37,709 bases of DNA, taken from the NCBI GenBank assembly GCA_002843035.1, contig PHEV01000015.1, forward strand, positions 1 to 37,709. The letters run 5' to 3'. This DNA is from Actinobacteria bacterium HGW-Actinobacteria-5 (GTDB lineage: Bacteria > Actinomycetota > Actinomycetes > Propionibacteriales > Propionibacteriaceae). The notes under the pieces were generated by a model. It was not told the origin of the DNA. It saw nothing but the letters and a program-made list of their open reading frames with translations, and searched no databases. Of this stretch, positions 13,253 through 35,106 are shown in pieces (position 1 is the stretch's first letter; every line of letters starts with the position of its first letter). A program made the position numbers and the translations under genes.

Positions 13253-13577
13253 GGGGACGGTTCCCTTTCCGTTCACGGGGACGGTTCCTTTCCCGTTCAC
13301 GGAGGCTCAGCGGCGGTTCCCTTCCTGCTCACTCACCACCCGTGATCGGTTGACGGGGAACCGGAGCGGGGACGGTTCCTTCACAGTCCGGCCGCTGACA
13401 AGGGACGGGGCCAAGTGAACGGGATCGGGGACGGACCAGGTGAACGGGAAGGGAACCGTCCCCGCAGTGTGACTGAACGGGAAGGGAACCGTCCCCGCAG
13501 TGTGACTGAACGGGAACGGGGACGCACCCCGTGAACGGAAAGGGAACCGTCCCCGTGAACGGAAACGGAACCGTCCC
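13253..13577. repeat. Repeat cluster 5: the largest, about ten copies
   Basis: Plus copies lie at 13253-13276 and 13277-13300 (back to back), a degenerate copy at about 13311-13332 and a shortened one at 13367-13385. Minus copies follow at about 13414, 13441, 13474, 13507, 13531 and 13554. Positions 13441-13473 and 13474-13506 are an exact 33-bp tandem duplication: one repeat plus the spacer CGCAGTGTGAC. The plus-then-minus order is the same as around the RAYT gene. The cluster lies between the 3' ends of the GH65 and Hsp70-like genes; the 13225-13632 gap holds nothing else recognisable. Confidence 0.94.
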
Positions 13578-13632
13578 CGGTTCTCTCGAGCGCCGGGGGC
13601 ACCAGCAGGCGCAGCCCGGACCGGAGCGGGAG

Positions 13633-21445: not shown

Positions 21446-22828
21446 TCAGTCCGGACGCGGGCCCGTGCCGGCGACAGCCGCGCGGACCAGCGGACGGCAG
21501 GCTTCGCCGGCGGCCCAGACCAGCGCGATCCCTGCGACCAGCGCACCGAGGAAGACGATCACCCCGAGCTGGCTCGCACCCACCTTCGGCAGCAGCCCGA
21601 AGAAGAAGACCGCCAGCAGCCCAGAGCCGAGCGCAGCCACGGAGGCCGGCGCCACCACCTGGACGAGCCGGGTGCGGTCGTGCAGCACCAGCGGGACGCC
21701 GAGGTTGCCCAGCTGCTGCAGTTCGCGGCGCCGGTCCAACACCGCGGACGCCTGGTTCAGCAGGGTGGACGCCGCCGCCACCACGAACGCGATCGCCAGC
21801 GTGAGGTATGTGCCCGTGCGCAGGTCATCGGCGAGGATCCGGATCAGCGGATCGGCTGCCCCCTCCCCGAGGTCGGGAATCGTGACCAGGGCGCCCCCGG
21901 TGAAGCCGATGAACGCCAGCCCCGACACCGAGCGCCATGCGCCCTTGGGGTCGGCCAGCAGCCGGCGCCCGGCCAGGAGTACGGACGGTCGCCCCGAACG
22001 GGCCAGCAGATGGCCCATGAACTGCAGCAGCCACGGGCCGACAAGGTTGATCACACCCATGAACACGGCCAGCGACACGAGGACCACGGTCGCGCCGACG
22101 GCGAACGCGCGGGCGAGGTTCAGCATCGGGGCCACCAGCAGCCAGGCCACGACGGCCAGCGGCAGGGCGAGGAAGCGCCACACGCGAACGGCAGGACGCG
22201 GCGCCCGCCGGGCCACCCCGAGCGGTGAGATCCGCAGCCGCATCAGGCCGCCGACCGCGCTGATCGCGGCGAGCACGACCACCAGCCCGACGATGGAGGC
22301 CAGCGCCCAGCCGGGCAGCAGCATCTCCGCGGCCGAGAGCGGCGTGGCCTGGAAGGTGATCGCCGCCCACGCCGGCAGGGTGACGAGGTAGCCCACGAGC
22401 CCCACAACGGCACCGGCCAGGGCAGCCAGGACGGTCTCGAGCACGCTCAGCGCCACCACCTGGCCGCCGGAGACGCCCAGCAACCGCAACGTGGCCAGCC
22501 GCCGGTCGCGGCCCAGCGCCCCCATTCGGGCGGCCGCCGCGCCGAGGGTCAGCACCGGCACGACCAGCAGGACGCTCGCGCAGGCTGCGATCAGCGTCCA
22601 GATCGGCAACTCGGACGCGCCGTCCACAGGTCCGCCGCCGACCGCAGCCAGGAACATCGCTGGCGGCGCGGCCTGGCGCTGGACGAACACGTTCAGTCCG
22701 GCCAGCACGGTGAACAACAGCCAGCTGCTCACGGTGAAGGCTGCGACGGTCATCAGGTCGATCAGCCCCTGCCCTGCCGAGATCCGTCCGCGCAACAGCA
22801 TCGGGGCGACCCGGGTGACCCGCCGCAT
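21446..22828 (-). CDS. ABC transporter permease, FtsX/MacB-like
   Basis: The product has 460 residues with about eight predicted TM helices. The first block (about 20-60) and a cluster from 95 to 260 are followed by a second set at 300-450, giving two FtsX-like halves. DRRLATLRLLGVSGGQVVALSVLET after the third helix is the typical FtsX coupling-region motif, and RRRELQQLGNLGVP is its degenerate second copy. It should form the membrane part of an exporter or envelope-stress transporter with the ATPase encoded just upstream, whose stop overlaps this ATG (TGATG). The divergent LuxR-type two-component system suggests regulation by, or sensing through, this transporter, as in antimicrobial-peptide detoxification modules. 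The substrate is not deducible. Confidence 0.85.
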   Translation of the reverse strand: MRRVTRVAPMLLRGRISAGQGLIDLMTVAAFTVSSWLLFTVLAGLNVFVQRQAAPPAMFLAAVGGGPVDGASELPIWTLIAACASVLLVVPVLTLGAAAARMGALGRDRRLATLRLLGVSGGQVVALSVLETVLAALAGAVVGLVGYLVTLPAWAAITFQATPLSAAEMLLPGWALASIVGLVVVLAAISAVGGLMRLRISPLGVARRAPRPAVRVWRFLALPLAVVAWLLVAPMLNLARAFAVGATVVLVSLAVFMGVINLVGPWLLQFMGHLLARSGRPSVLLAGRRLLADPKGAWRSVSGLAFIGFTGGALVTIPDLGEGAADPLIRILADDLRTGTYLTLAIAFVVAAASTLLNQASAVLDRRRELQQLGNLGVPLVLHDRTRLVQVVAPASVAALGSGLLAVFFFGLLPKVGASQLGVIVFLGALVAGIALVWAAGEACRPLVRAAVAGTGPRPD

Positions 22829-23526
22829 CAGGCGGCCCACCGGGCGGCGACGTCGTTGATCACGCGGCCGTCCACGATCTCGACGTGTCGCTCGCACCAC
22901 TGCGCGACCCCGGCGTCGTGGGTGACGACCACCAGGCTCGCCCCGCCGTCCCTGGTCGCCGCAGTGAGGACCCGCATCACCTCGGCGCCGGTGGCCTGGT
23001 CGAGGGCGCCGGTGGGCTCGTCGGCCAGCACGACGGCCGGATCGGCGACCATCGCACGAGCGATCGCGACCCGGTGCTCCTGCCCGCCGGACAACTGCCC
23101 GGGACGCCGCTTCTCCAGTCCGGCCAGGCCCAGCCGGGACAGCCAGTCGGCAGCCCGGCCCAGCGCCTCTGCACGCGGACGGCCGAGCAGGAGCAGCGGC
23201 AACGCCACGTTCTCCAGCGCCGGGAGTTCGGGCAGGAGCTGCCCGTCCTGGAAGACGAAGCCCATGTGCTGCAAGCGCAACCGGCTGCGGGCCGCGTCCG
23301 ATGACAGCGAGATCGGCTCGTCGCCGAGGCTGACGTCACCCGCGTCCGGACGCAGGATGCCGGCCAGGCAGTGCAGCAGGGTGGACTTCCCCGAACCGGA
23401 CGGGCCCATCACCGACACCGACTGACCCGACGGGATGTCGATGCTGACGCCGTCGAGCGCATGGACGTCGCCGAAGGACTTCGAGATGCTGCGAGCGCTG
23501 AGCATGCGCCCCGGGATGTTGTTCAT
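22828..23526 (-). CDS. ABC transporter ATP-binding protein (LolD/MacB-type)
   Basis: The product has 232 residues with all nucleotide-binding motifs: Walker A GPSGSGKST, Q-loop FVFQDGQLLPEL, signature LSGGQEHRVAIARAM, Walker B VVLADEPTGALD and the H-loop VVVTHD. This subtype pairs with FtsX-like permeases, as encoded downstream. The ATG at 23526 is preceded by TTGGCT and a 6-nt spacer; an ATG at 23505 is an alternative start and gives a more typical N-terminus (MLSARSISKSFG). It is divergent from the sensor kinase gene across 130 nt holding two palindromes. Confidence 0.93.
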   Translation of the reverse strand: MNNIPGRMLSARSISKSFGDVHALDGVSIDIPSGQSVSVMGPSGSGKSTLLHCLAGILRPDAGDVSLGDEPISLSSDAARSRLRLQHMGFVFQDGQLLPELPALENVALPLLLLGRPRAEALGRAADWLSRLGLAGLEKRRPGQLSGGQEHRVAIARAMVADPAVVLADEPTGALDQATGAEVMRVLTAATRDGGASLVVVTHDAGVAQWCERHVEIVDGRVINDVAARWAA

Positions 23527-23583
23527 GCCTCCAGCCAACCGCAGCGGTGCGGCAGGCTCACGGGCGCTGACCGGCGTCCTGCG

Positions 23584-23601
23584 GGTAGTGCCAGCACTAC
23601 C
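23584..23601. promoter_or_regulatory. 8-2-8 palindromic operator centred between divergent starts
   Basis: GGTAGTGC (23584-23591), CA, GCACTACC (23594-23601) is a perfect inverted repeat. Its centre (23592.5) is about 66 nt from the ABC ATG and about 64 nt from the kinase GTG, essentially the midpoint. This is where a dimeric regulator such as the LuxR-type response regulator at 24953-25612 could control both transcripts. Confidence 0.6.
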
Positions 23602-23633
23602 GGTCACTCGCCCACGCACCCTCCCTTGCGCGG

Positions 23634-23656
23634 CCCGCCACCCCTAGGGTGGCGGG
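23634..23656. promoter_or_regulatory. 10-3-10 palindrome covering the -10 region of the sensor kinase gene
   Basis: CCCGCCACCC (23634-23643), CTA, GGGTGGCGGG (23647-23656) is perfectly self-complementary and ends on the base before the GTG start at 23657. Within it TAGGGT (23645-23650) stands 6 nt before the GTG, the leaderless -10 spacing of this genome. It could be an autoregulatory operator. Confidence 0.5.
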
Positions 23657-24850
23657 GTGACCACGCAGAGCCCGCTCGCCGATGCCGAGTTCCGGAGCCG
23701 GCTCGCGGCGCCCCACAACCCGCTGCGGATGCTGATCAGCCCGATCGGCTGGCGGGCCGTGCTGTACTGCTTCACCTCGATCGTCGGCGGAGTGCTCGCG
23801 CTGCTCGCTGCGATCCTCGGGGTGCTGGTGCTGCCGCTGGTGACCTGGGCGACGGCGAACGTGGAGCGGGGTCGCCTTGTCGTCCTCGGCCTGCCGCGAC
23901 TCACCCCGCTGCCCCGTACCCGCGTCCGGCACCCGTGGGACCCGCGAGGCTTCAGCGACGGCAATCTCGCCGTGTGGGGGATCACCGTCCTGTTCGGTCT
24001 TGTGGATGCGATCCCCGGGGCGGGGCTGGCGATACTGATCCTCGGCCTGGCGTACACCCTCGCCCGCCAGCTCAATGCCTTCCGCTGGAGCATCGATATC
24101 GTGCTGGTCGGGGGCGAACTGACGGTCGCCCTCGTCATCGGGCTGTACGTGGCCTGGGCGCTCGCGGCGGCGCAGGCGATCATCGTCGACATCCAGCTGC
24201 GACCGCACTCCGAGCTCAGCCAGCAGGTGGACGAGCTGACCGTCTCCCGACGCAACCTCGTGGACGTGTTCGCCGCCGAGCGCCGTCGGATCGAACACGA
24301 CCTGCACGACGGCGCCCAGCAGCACCTGGTGTTGACCAGCATGCAGCTCGGGGAGGCCGAGTACGCGCTCGGGCGGGGTGACCTGGACGGGGCGCGCCGA
24401 GCACTGCAGGCCGCGCAGGGCTCGGTCGAGGCCGCGACGACGTCGCTGCGGGACACGATCCGCGGCATCCACCCCCAACTGCTCACCGACCGGGGACTCG
24501 TCGCCGCGGTCCGTGAACTGGCCGGACGCCAGTCCCTTCCTGTGCACGTGGAGGTCAGCGGCGTCCAGACCCCAGGGGAAGACGTGTCGCTGGCGGTGTA
24601 CTACCTGGTCAGTGAGGCATTCACCAACCAGGCCCGGCACGCGCGAGCCACCACGTCCACGGTCCGGCTGCAGTTGGCCGACCCGCTGGTGCTGGAGGTG
24701 TACGACGACGGCGTGGGTGGTGCGCAGGTGCGTCCGGGCCACGGCCTCAGCGGCCTGGTCGAGTGGACCCGAGCCCTCGGCGGGGGCTTCTGGCTGTCCA
24801 GCCCGCCGGGCGGCCCGACCCTGCTCCGGGCGAGCTTCCCGAACCGCTGA
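23657..24850 (+). CDS. Sensor histidine kinase (HisKA_3/NarL-type)
   Basis: The product has 397 residues. Hydrophobic segments at about 30-65, 100-135 and 145-175 form a membrane sensor region. The dimerisation domain has ERRRIEHDLHDGAQQ with phospho-accepting His214, as in kinases that pair with LuxR-type regulators. The ATPase domain shows an N-box (SEAFTNQARHARAT) and a G1 box (VYDDGVGGA); the G2 region is short (GHGLSGLVEW). The GTG start follows a palindrome that contains its -10. The response regulator gene lies 102 nt downstream, and the ABC transporter is divergent. Confidence 0.92.
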   Translation: MTTQSPLADAEFRSRLAAPHNPLRMLISPIGWRAVLYCFTSIVGGVLALLAAILGVLVLPLVTWATANVERGRLVVLGLPRLTPLPRTRVRHPWDPRGFSDGNLAVWGITVLFGLVDAIPGAGLAILILGLAYTLARQLNAFRWSIDIVLVGGELTVALVIGLYVAWALAAAQAIIVDIQLRPHSELSQQVDELTVSRRNLVDVFAAERRRIEHDLHDGAQQHLVLTSMQLGEAEYALGRGDLDGARRALQAAQGSVEAATTSLRDTIRGIHPQLLTDRGLVAAVRELAGRQSLPVHVEVSGVQTPGEDVSLAVYYLVSEAFTNQARHARATTSTVRLQLADPLVLEVYDDGVGGAQVRPGHGLSGLVEWTRALGGGFWLSSPPGGPTLLRASFPNR

Positions 24851-24865
24851 ACGAGCGCGGGCCGG

Positions 24866-24925
24866 CCTCCGGTTCGAGAGTTCGGCCCAGGGGCTCGGCC
24901 GGCCTTCGGCCCGGAAGACCGGAGG
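24866..24925. other. Intercistronic inverted repeat between kinase and regulator genes
   Basis: CCTCCGGT (24866-24873) and ACCGGAGG (24918-24925) are perfect complements enclosing a GC-rich segment with GGCCGGCC. It could fold as a long hairpin in the 102-nt gap and separate expression of the two genes. The function is unknown. Confidence 0.35.
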
Positions 24926-24952
24926 GAGATACTGTTCGCCGAAGGAGGCGGG

Positions 24953-25612
24953 ATGCGACTGCTGGTGGCCGACGACGCGGCGCTGATCCGGGCCGGTCTG
25001 GTGGGCCTGCTGGAGCGGGCCGGACACGAGGTGGTGGCCGAGGCGGCAGACGCGCCGGAGCTGGTCGCCCGGTGCAGCCGGCTCGCCGCCACCGGGGAGC
25101 TGCCCGATCTGGTCATCGCCGACGTGCGGATGCCGCCGTCCATGACGGACGACGGGCTGCGGGCGGCCGTCCAGCTCCGCGACGCCTATCCGGAGTTGCC
25201 CGTGCTGATGCTCAGCCAATACGTTGCGCCGGCCTACGCCGCCACGCTGCTGGAGGCACGCGCGTCCGCCGGGCTCGGCTACCTGCTGAAGGAGCGGGTG
25301 GGGCGGGTGGCCGACTTCCTGCGCTCGGTCGAACTCGTCGCGGCCGGTGGCGTCGTGGTCGACCCGGAGGTTGTCGGCCAGCTGCTCAACGCGCGCCGCG
25401 GTGACCCGGTACTGAGCCGGCTCACGCCGCGCGAGCTCGAGGTGCTCTCGCTGATGGCCAACGGCGCGTCCAACGCCCAGATCGCCGATCAGCTGGTGGT
25501 CACGCAGGCAGCCGTCGCCAAGCATGTCGCGAACATCTTCGCCAAACTCGACCTCGGCCCGAACGAGGACAATCGCCGCGTCCGGGCGGTCCTGACCTAC
25601 CTCAACCGCTGA
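24953..25612 (+). CDS. Response regulator, NarL/LuxR family
   Basis: The product has 219 residues. The receiver domain (1-120) has the acidic pair DD (7-8), phospho-acceptor Asp57 in VIADVRMP, Ser/Thr position MLSQY and Lys in YLLKERVG. A LuxR-type helix-turn-helix occupies about 155-215 (LTPRELEVLSLMANGASNAQIADQLVVTQAAVAKHVANIFAKLDL). Phosphorylated by the upstream kinase, it should bind palindromic DNA as a dimer; the 8-2-8 palindrome at 23584-23601 is the obvious candidate. The ribosome site is GGAGG, 6 nt before the ATG. The likely target is the divergent ABC transporter and its own operon. Confidence 0.94.
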   Translation: MRLLVADDAALIRAGLVGLLERAGHEVVAEAADAPELVARCSRLAATGELPDLVIADVRMPPSMTDDGLRAAVQLRDAYPELPVLMLSQYVAPAYAATLLEARASAGLGYLLKERVGRVADFLRSVELVAAGGVVVDPEVVGQLLNARRGDPVLSRLTPRELEVLSLMANGASNAQIADQLVVTQAAVAKHVANIFAKLDLGPNEDNRRVRAVLTYLNR

Positions 25613-25647: not shown

Positions 25648-25781
25648 GGGGACGGTTCCCTACCCGTTCACGGGGACGGTTCCCTACCCGTTCACCTTTC
25701 AACCGATGACAGACCGAATGAACCGAAAGGGAACCGTCCCCTCAGTGCGCGGACCGAGTGAACGGAAAGGGAACCGTCCCC
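25648..25781. repeat. Repeat cluster 7: four copies, plus-plus-minus-minus
   Basis: Plus copies at 25648-25671 and 25672-25695 are adjoining and both have CCTACCC in place of CCTTCCC. Minus copies are at 25718-25741 and 25758-25781. The linker at about 25702-25720 (ACCGATGACAGACCGAATG) is nearly the same as in cluster 10, which suggests the clusters are versions of one composite element. Confidence 0.93.
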
Positions 25782-30573: not shown

Positions 30574-30669
30574 GTGAACGGGAAGGGAACCGTCCCCGCG
30601 AACCGAACAGGAACCGTCCCTGCGAACGGGAAGGGAACCGTCCCCGCGAACCGAACAGGAACCGTCCCC
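30574..30669. repeat. Repeat cluster 9: four minus copies, a 48-bp unit in tandem
   Basis: Copies at 30574-30597 and 30622-30645 are canonical; copies at about 30598-30620 and 30646-30669 are a second subtype (CGAACCGAACAGGAACCGTCCC). The pair is duplicated with a 48-bp period and only two mismatches. It follows the RAYT stop by 16 nt. Confidence 0.93.
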
Positions 30670-34977: not shown

Positions 34978-35106
34978 GGGGACGGTTCCCTTCCCGTTCA
35001 CCCCGGGCAGGAAGGGGACGGTTCCCTTCCCGTTCACTCTCCACCGATGACGGGCCGAATGAACGGTTAGGGAACCGTCCCCGCGAACGGGAAAGGAACC
35101 GTCCCC
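34978..35106. repeat. Repeat cluster 10: four copies, plus-plus-minus-minus
   Basis: Plus copies lie at 34978-35001 and 35014-35037. Minus copies are at 35059-35082 (with GGTTAGG in the centre) and 35083-35106. The linker before the first minus copy (ACCGATGACGGGCCGAATG) matches that of cluster 7 with two differences. The rest of the 34893-35138 gap shows nothing. Confidence 0.93.

Follow-up and report, generated by a model that had tools for sequence, protein, structure and literature searches.

A conserved operator between an ABC exporter and a divergent two-component system in actinobacteria, with the adjacent response regulator as its predicted ligand

When an exporter operon and a two-component operon diverge from the same short stretch of intergenic DNA, a palindrome lying between them raises the question of which protein reads it, and which of the two operons it serves. 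The window analysed here, a stretch of 37,709 nucleotides from Actinobacteria bacterium HGW-Actinobacteria-5, contains such a region, in which 130 nt separate the ATG of an ABC ATPase gene (23526, minus strand) from the GTG of a histidine kinase gene (23657, plus strand). On the minus strand lie a LolD/MacB-like ABC transporter ATPase of 232 amino acids (22828-23526) and an FtsX-family permease of 460 amino acids (21446-22828), whose Pfam FtsX score is just under the cut-off and whose predicted fold is nearest to BceB and YbbP (model pLDDT 83.8; closest chains from BceABS and YbbAP). The permease start and the ATPase stop share one base within TGATG at 22826-22830, an overlap that suggests translational coupling. 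On the plus strand, a HisKA_3 histidine kinase of 397 amino acids (23657-24850), placed in the membrane from its hydrophobic N-terminal half, is followed by a NarL/LuxR family response regulator of 219 amino acids (24953-25612) with the recognition helix AAVAKHVANIF and alanine at residue 189. Both domains of this regulator score above their Pfam cut-offs, the receiver at 55.0 bits (cut-off 30.2) and the GerE helix-turn-helix at 49.8 bits (cut-off 23.5).

Two perfect palindromes occupy the intergenic region, at the positions given in a preliminary description of the sequence. The first, GGTAGTGC-CA-GCACTACC (23584-23601, unstranded), is our predicted site for a response-regulator dimer; the second, CCCGCCACCC-CTA-GGGTGGCGGG (23634-23656, unstranded), is a perfect 10-3-10 repeat lying over the kinase promoter. 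As a palindrome, the 8-2-8 element is unremarkable: the window holds four perfect 8-2-8 palindromes where 2.1 would be expected, and a perfect 8-(0 to 4)-8 palindrome arises in 2.7% of simulated 130-nt stretches. Because such repeats occur near chance frequency, the case for an operator rests on comparison, and it is for its conservation that the element is remarkable.

That conservation is narrow in exact sequence and broader in its core. The 3.84-Mb genome of the organism itself carries two perfect copies of the 18-mer, no copy with one mismatch, and next-best sites with two mismatches, and in a class-wide sample of 394 genomes the 18-mer was confined to the organism's own. A search with the 16-base core and a free centre found 13 sites in 12 of 146 genomes, the organism's own included and most of them from its genus and family; every one of the 13 adjoins an ABC ATPase gene, and the centre is always CA or TG. 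An exact scan of 84,980 species returned 58 stretches, 51 actinobacterial and 7 from other groups. Assuming equal base use, two strands of 257 billion bases set against 4^18 possible words predict about 7.5 copies, so the 7 non-actinobacterial copies are about the chance number estimated for the whole collection. Among relatives, the two arms vary together, as GTAGAGC/GCTCTAC, GTGGAGC/GCTCCAC or GTGGTGC/GCACCAC. That the palindrome is an accident of GC-rich intergenic DNA, as the frequency of perfect 8-2-8 repeats in the window would allow, is accordingly a reading to which we give almost no weight; it is ruled out by the conserved core, the distribution of exact copies and the regulator-anchored loci described below, in which the operator is kept at a near-fixed spacing and both of its arms are altered together.

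A regulator match at 1e-45 or better was present in 113 of 198 family genomes. We assembled 60 regulator-anchored loci, made up of the window, the 58 best other loci among more than 150 matches and the organism's own paralogue on contig C87, and took an additional stretch from contig C74, where the second perfect site lies. Within this set of best matches, 48 of the 60 loci contained an ABC ATPase match. Scoring up to 500 nt upstream of the ATPase against two operator variants at once, with the best count out of 18 positions taken, gave an operator of at least 15/18 in all 48 loci and of at least 16/18 in 45, while a reversed consensus reached 15/18 in one of the same 48 loci and 16/18 in none. 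The related intergenic regions thus keep the 8-2-8 operator, as the preliminary description had expected of a functional site. Four of the 48 counted ATPases (L092, L097, L098 and L103) are 42-45% identical to that of the window and may belong to other exporters. The remaining 12 loci had no ABC match; eight of these are paralogues with Glu, Gly or Thr at residue 189, L059, on a contig of only 5.7 kb, has a site with one mismatch, and in the other three (L054, L058 and L086) the contig has an operator preceding an exporter at another place (L180, L181 and L005, respectively).

The distance from the operator to the exporter gene is the most constant feature of these loci. In 46 of the 48, the operator centre lies 64.5-68.5 nt from an in-frame ATPase start, and exactly 65.5 nt from it in 29, with the start nearest the expected place chosen in the 26 of these 46 loci where more than one in-frame start is possible. 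An alternative score reaching up to 1,000 nt upstream placed a site in 41 of the 48 loci, all 41 with a start at 64.5-68.5 nt. Of the 48, the two loci outside this spacing are L097, at 113.5 nt, and L098, at 54.5 nt. The same spacing recurs among the exact copies: an open reading frame starts 64.5-68.5 nt away from 40 of the 51 actinobacterial sites, compared with 11% when positions are drawn at random from those loci, and from none of the 7 others. Near these 51 sites, an ABC ATPase start 20-160 nt away was found in 32 and a response regulator of at least 47% identity, no more than 3.5 kb off, in 30; by these criteria 39 have one or the other and 12 have neither.

Conservation of the exporter distance bears directly on whether the site serves both operons equally. 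Measured from the operator centre at 23592.5, the ABC ATG is 66.5 nt away and the kinase GTG 64.5 nt, which bears out the preliminary placement within 1-2 nt of the midpoint. It had been proposed from this that, if both transcripts are leaderless, the equal distances would suit symmetrical control by one dimer. The equal spacing is seen in the window and the six loci nearest to it, where a candidate kinase start lies at 64.5 or 65.5 nt and the exporter at 66.5 nt, but elsewhere the spacing on the kinase side varies or disappears. Another 12 loci form a group with the candidate kinase start 42.5-44.5 nt from the centre (the site in L100 being poor), and in other loci it is scattered or hundreds of nucleotides away while the exporter distance stays at about 65.5. 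The site stays by the exporter in L078, L083, L084, L091 and L094, whose candidate kinase starts lie 313.5 to 1013.5 nt off. Locus L053 is a natural test of the two-target idea, in that its exporter and kinase operons lie about 2.4 kb apart and each has an operator of its own, at 66.5 and 64.5 nt. The symmetry is real locally, yet it is not the feature that selection preserved; what stays nearly fixed is the exporter distance. We make no claim of helical phasing for the kinase-side distances, as a p value of about 1e-4 over 27 values from related loci became about 0.16 over 13 hand-thinned ones.

Which protein binds the operator can be approached through covariation between the site and the recognition helix. 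Within 49 loci that have alanine or serine at residue 189 and a scored operator (12 Ser, 37 Ala), base 6 of the operator is A on both arms in all 12 Ser189 rows, one of which (L097) has a weak 15-match site. In the Ala189 rows it is T on both arms in 31 of 37, on one arm in 5, and on neither in 1, again a weak site. Two further Ala rows, L058 and L086, have no operator near the regulator; the L086 gene lies about 18 kb from an exporter with an operator (L005) on the same contig of genome G063. The single Val189 row, L103, has the operator with GTAGAGC on one arm. Near the 8 paralogues with Glu, Gly or Thr at this residue, no operator of at least 15/18 was found. Residue 189 aligns with the lysine that follows valine in the VraR helix VKTHV. 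Residue and base change together, twice on the tree, a co-change that is suggestive; an independent-pairs test amounts to 2 pairs and has no power. Within the organism's own genome, the recognition helix of the window regulator occurs in one of seven regulator matches, the window's own.

Because the operator accompanies this regulator subfamily and base 6 follows residue 189, the adjacent regulator (24953-25612) is most likely the ligand of the 8-2-8 operator. The same two observations count against the idea that the site is used by a different DNA-binding protein whose gene lies elsewhere, with the nearby response regulator as a bystander: the operator goes with this subfamily and not with the 8 paralogues, and its base 6 tracks residue 189. 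In Nocardia, and in Actinoplanes with its relatives, some exact sites do adjoin genes for PF00144 hydrolases, an MMPL protein or a fatty-acid desaturase, as a binding protein of another kind might lead one to expect, and we regard such a protein as very unlikely. The operator, its conservation, its near-fixed distance from the exporter start and its association with the recognition helix are observations of this study, on which the prediction of binding is built.

How the bound regulator would act is suggested by the promoters on either side. For the exporter operon, the minus-10-like hexamer TTGGCT (23533-23538, minus strand) ends 6 nt before the ATG, and for the kinase gene, TAGGGT (23645-23650, plus strand) ends 6 nt before the GTG; the function of both is judged from position, and both fit leaderless transcripts. 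Exporter hexamers in relatives are mostly TGGAAT, TGAAAT or TTGGCT, 6 or 7 nt before the start. A T....T hexamer at that distance is present in 42 of 46 exporter promoters (TGGAAT in 14, TGAAAT in 8, TTGGCT in 7), and in none of the 46 does a TAnnnT hexamer occur 5-8 nt ahead of the start. Kinase promoters of the window clade have TAGGGT. Poor exporter minus-10 hexamers, together with a core promoter left free by the distant site, fit a weak promoter that depends on an activator. A further conserved element, GGCRCYNTGG by per-position base counts, lies some 42 to 33 nt ahead of the exporter start (window form AGCGCCCGTGA, 23558-23568, minus strand) and may serve as a weak additional half-site covering the minus-35 region. 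A scan for the sigma-70 consensus gave no match, a consensus that actinobacterial promoters need not fit. No terminator-like site was found in 23300-25100, and an RNA attenuator or terminator is ruled out by this result and by the position of the operator upstream of both presumed starts.

We therefore propose a model in which each step is a prediction. The membrane kinase (23657-24850) would sense a signal, for which our guess is envelope or membrane damage, and the phosphorylated NarL/LuxR-type regulator would bind GGTAGTGC-CA-GCACTACC as a dimer. From about 66 nt upstream, the bound regulator would activate the weak leaderless exporter promoter, and in this clade the same site would also activate the kinase-regulator operon, closing a positive feedback loop. 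It would probably also act in trans at the other perfect site of the genome, which precedes a further ABC exporter on contig C74. We consider it probable that the regulator binds the operator and switches on the exporter and, within this clade, the operon that encodes the regulator itself. The exporter system may be viewed as a putative response to envelope or membrane stress, with the signal and the transported substrate, like activation rather than repression, inferred from sequence. The reverse arrangement, in which the same regulator keeps one or both of the exporter and the kinase operon repressed until signalling releases it, would suit a site between divergent promoters, as response regulators can repress, and HrrA, which a review describes in its available part as both activating and repressing, is a precedent for such dual action. 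We judge repression unlikely, as the operator is centred some 66 nt ahead of the presumed start, off the core promoter, the exporter minus-10 hexamers are poor, and two studied parallels, ChrSA and AbrA1/A2, are positively autoregulated according to the accessible portions of their reports.

The second palindrome appears to have a different standing. The preliminary description treated the region as controlled by two palindromes, a view that does not survive comparison: the nearest relatives keep the TAGGGT region and lose the left arm of 23634-23656, which rules the element out as a shared operator. As a perfect 10-3-10 repeat it is rarer than its neighbour (a perfect 10-(0 to 4)-10 palindrome occurs in 0.3% of simulated 130-nt stretches), and the repeat, which overlaps the minus-10, is able to fold as RNA, features that would suit an additional operator or an RNA hairpin controlling the kinase gene. 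With the left arm lost beside a retained TAGGGT region, and with the hairpin falling outside the RNA if the kinase transcript is leaderless, we think either role distinctly unlikely, and the second palindrome probably lies outside the shared mechanism. As a separate matter, the window is rich in another repeat, GGGGACGGTTCC, with 41 copies at up to one mismatch compared with 0.7 expected. These copies are clustered, for example at 107-393, 13253-13578, 25648-25781, 30586-30669 and 34978-35106, and in several clusters a plus-strand run faces a minus-strand run; a longer form of the repeat is found at 63 places in the genome with up to one mismatch.

Returning to activation by the adjacent regulator, the second perfect operator in the genome (L001:1501-1518, contig C74) lies 65.5 nt upstream of a further ABC ATPase gene, which starts with GTG and has TAGCGT 6 nt before its start. 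Homologues of this second exporter have the operator in 4 of 27 cases in the genus (own included), all at 65.5-67.5 nt, so that the second exporter is a patchy target in the genus. Farther away, some records from Actinoplanes, Paractinoplanes and Virgisporangium have the operator upstream of genes of other kinds, encoding a fatty-acid desaturase or an MMPL protein, a sensor protein or kinase with PF13796, or a hydrolase of PF00144.

In four Actinoplanes loci (L132, L137, L138 and L143), the operator lies between an apparent fatty-acid desaturase gene and a divergent open reading frame that starts 42.5 nt from the centre and, in L137, L138 and L143, matches a kinase. The desaturase was called by Pfam in L132 and judged by N-terminal likeness or position in the other three, and it seems to replace the exporter there, an arrangement somewhat like that of DesKR systems. 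Exact operators also lie upstream of PF00144 (beta-lactamase-fold) proteins in Nocardia (L126 and L147) and Actinoplanes (L119), the two Nocardia sites at distances other than 66 nt.

A wider statement can be ventured, although we would put it at slightly under an even chance: that there is an actinobacterial response-regulator code in which the AVAKHV/AVSKHV subfamily reads GGTRGWGC-CA-GCWCYACC about 65.5 nt before leaderless starts, each arm has its base 6 determined by residue 189, and a membrane or envelope stress regulon of desaturase, MMPL and PF00144 genes is also controlled in Actinoplanes, its relatives and Nocardia. For the exporter-linked two-component systems of several Actinomycetota orders, the comparison yields an operator sequence, a spacing rule and a specificity residue that can be put to the test, from which regulons might be predicted from sequence in Propionicimonas, Tessaracoccus, Micropruina, Corynebacterium, and Actinoplanes and its relatives. 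Since operators lie at a nearly constant distance from start codons, the loci also offer a natural test of how NarL-type activators act at leaderless promoters.

The arrangement itself is known, and our literature searches turned up no earlier description of the proposed operator code. Among the papers listed, text searches with the half-sites, the cores AGTGCCAGCACT and AGTGCTGGCACT and degenerate spellings did not find the operator described, and topical searches led to the parallels given below and to no such operator, with PMC7581861 matching in its reference list only, within a literature in which sequence logos and most subscription papers lie outside the reach of such searches, nor did text searches find the residue-189/base-6 rule in print. 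A Bce-type module pairs its transporter with a kinase and an OmpR-type regulator of the BceS/BceR kind. The window permease has a BceB-like transmembrane fold, although the match of its model to the BceABS chain is weak (TM-score 0.55 by query, E 6e-4) and no large extracellular domain is evident in the 460-residue model; unlike Bce-type systems, the window has a HisKA_3 kinase and a GerE regulator, neither of which is of the BceS/BceR kind. In Enterococcus faecalis, MadRS with MadLM and MadEFG provides envelope defence through ABC exporters and senses through a further transporter, MadAB, according to the available part of PMC10614854. MadR (NF047785) is the best NCBIfam model for the window regulator, at 94.8 bits, below its cut-off of 300.

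Closer likenesses are found among actinobacteria. In Streptomyces coelicolor, AbrA1/A2 and SCO1742/43 form one four-gene operon with positive autoregulation, as described in PMC4193843, a paper from which the terms binding site, palindrome, inverted repeat and consensus are absent; an ABC transporter is likewise kept together with a two-component system, in one operon there and divergently in the window. Among solved structures, the window regulator is closest in sequence to VraR (73.9 bits), with ChrA at 53.8 bits, the ChrA structure 4yn8 matching at 2.6e-13, more weakly than VraR. In arrangement, the closest known parallel is nevertheless ChrSA/hrtBA of Corynebacterium glutamicum, where, in the available text of PMC6850329, two promoters are both positively autoregulated from one centred ChrA binding site. 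As in that system (PMC6850329 and PMC3353115, in their accessible parts), the NarL/LuxR-type two-component operon of the window is divergent from an ABC exporter, and a single conserved operator lies between the operons, a likeness that holds in the window clade and not in all relatives. The signal of ChrSA is heme according to the same partial texts, unlike the envelope or membrane damage that we suppose here. Leaving homology and the sequence of the ChrA site aside, the window would work much as ChrSA/hrtBA does, and its divergent arrangement around a shared site is of a known kind.
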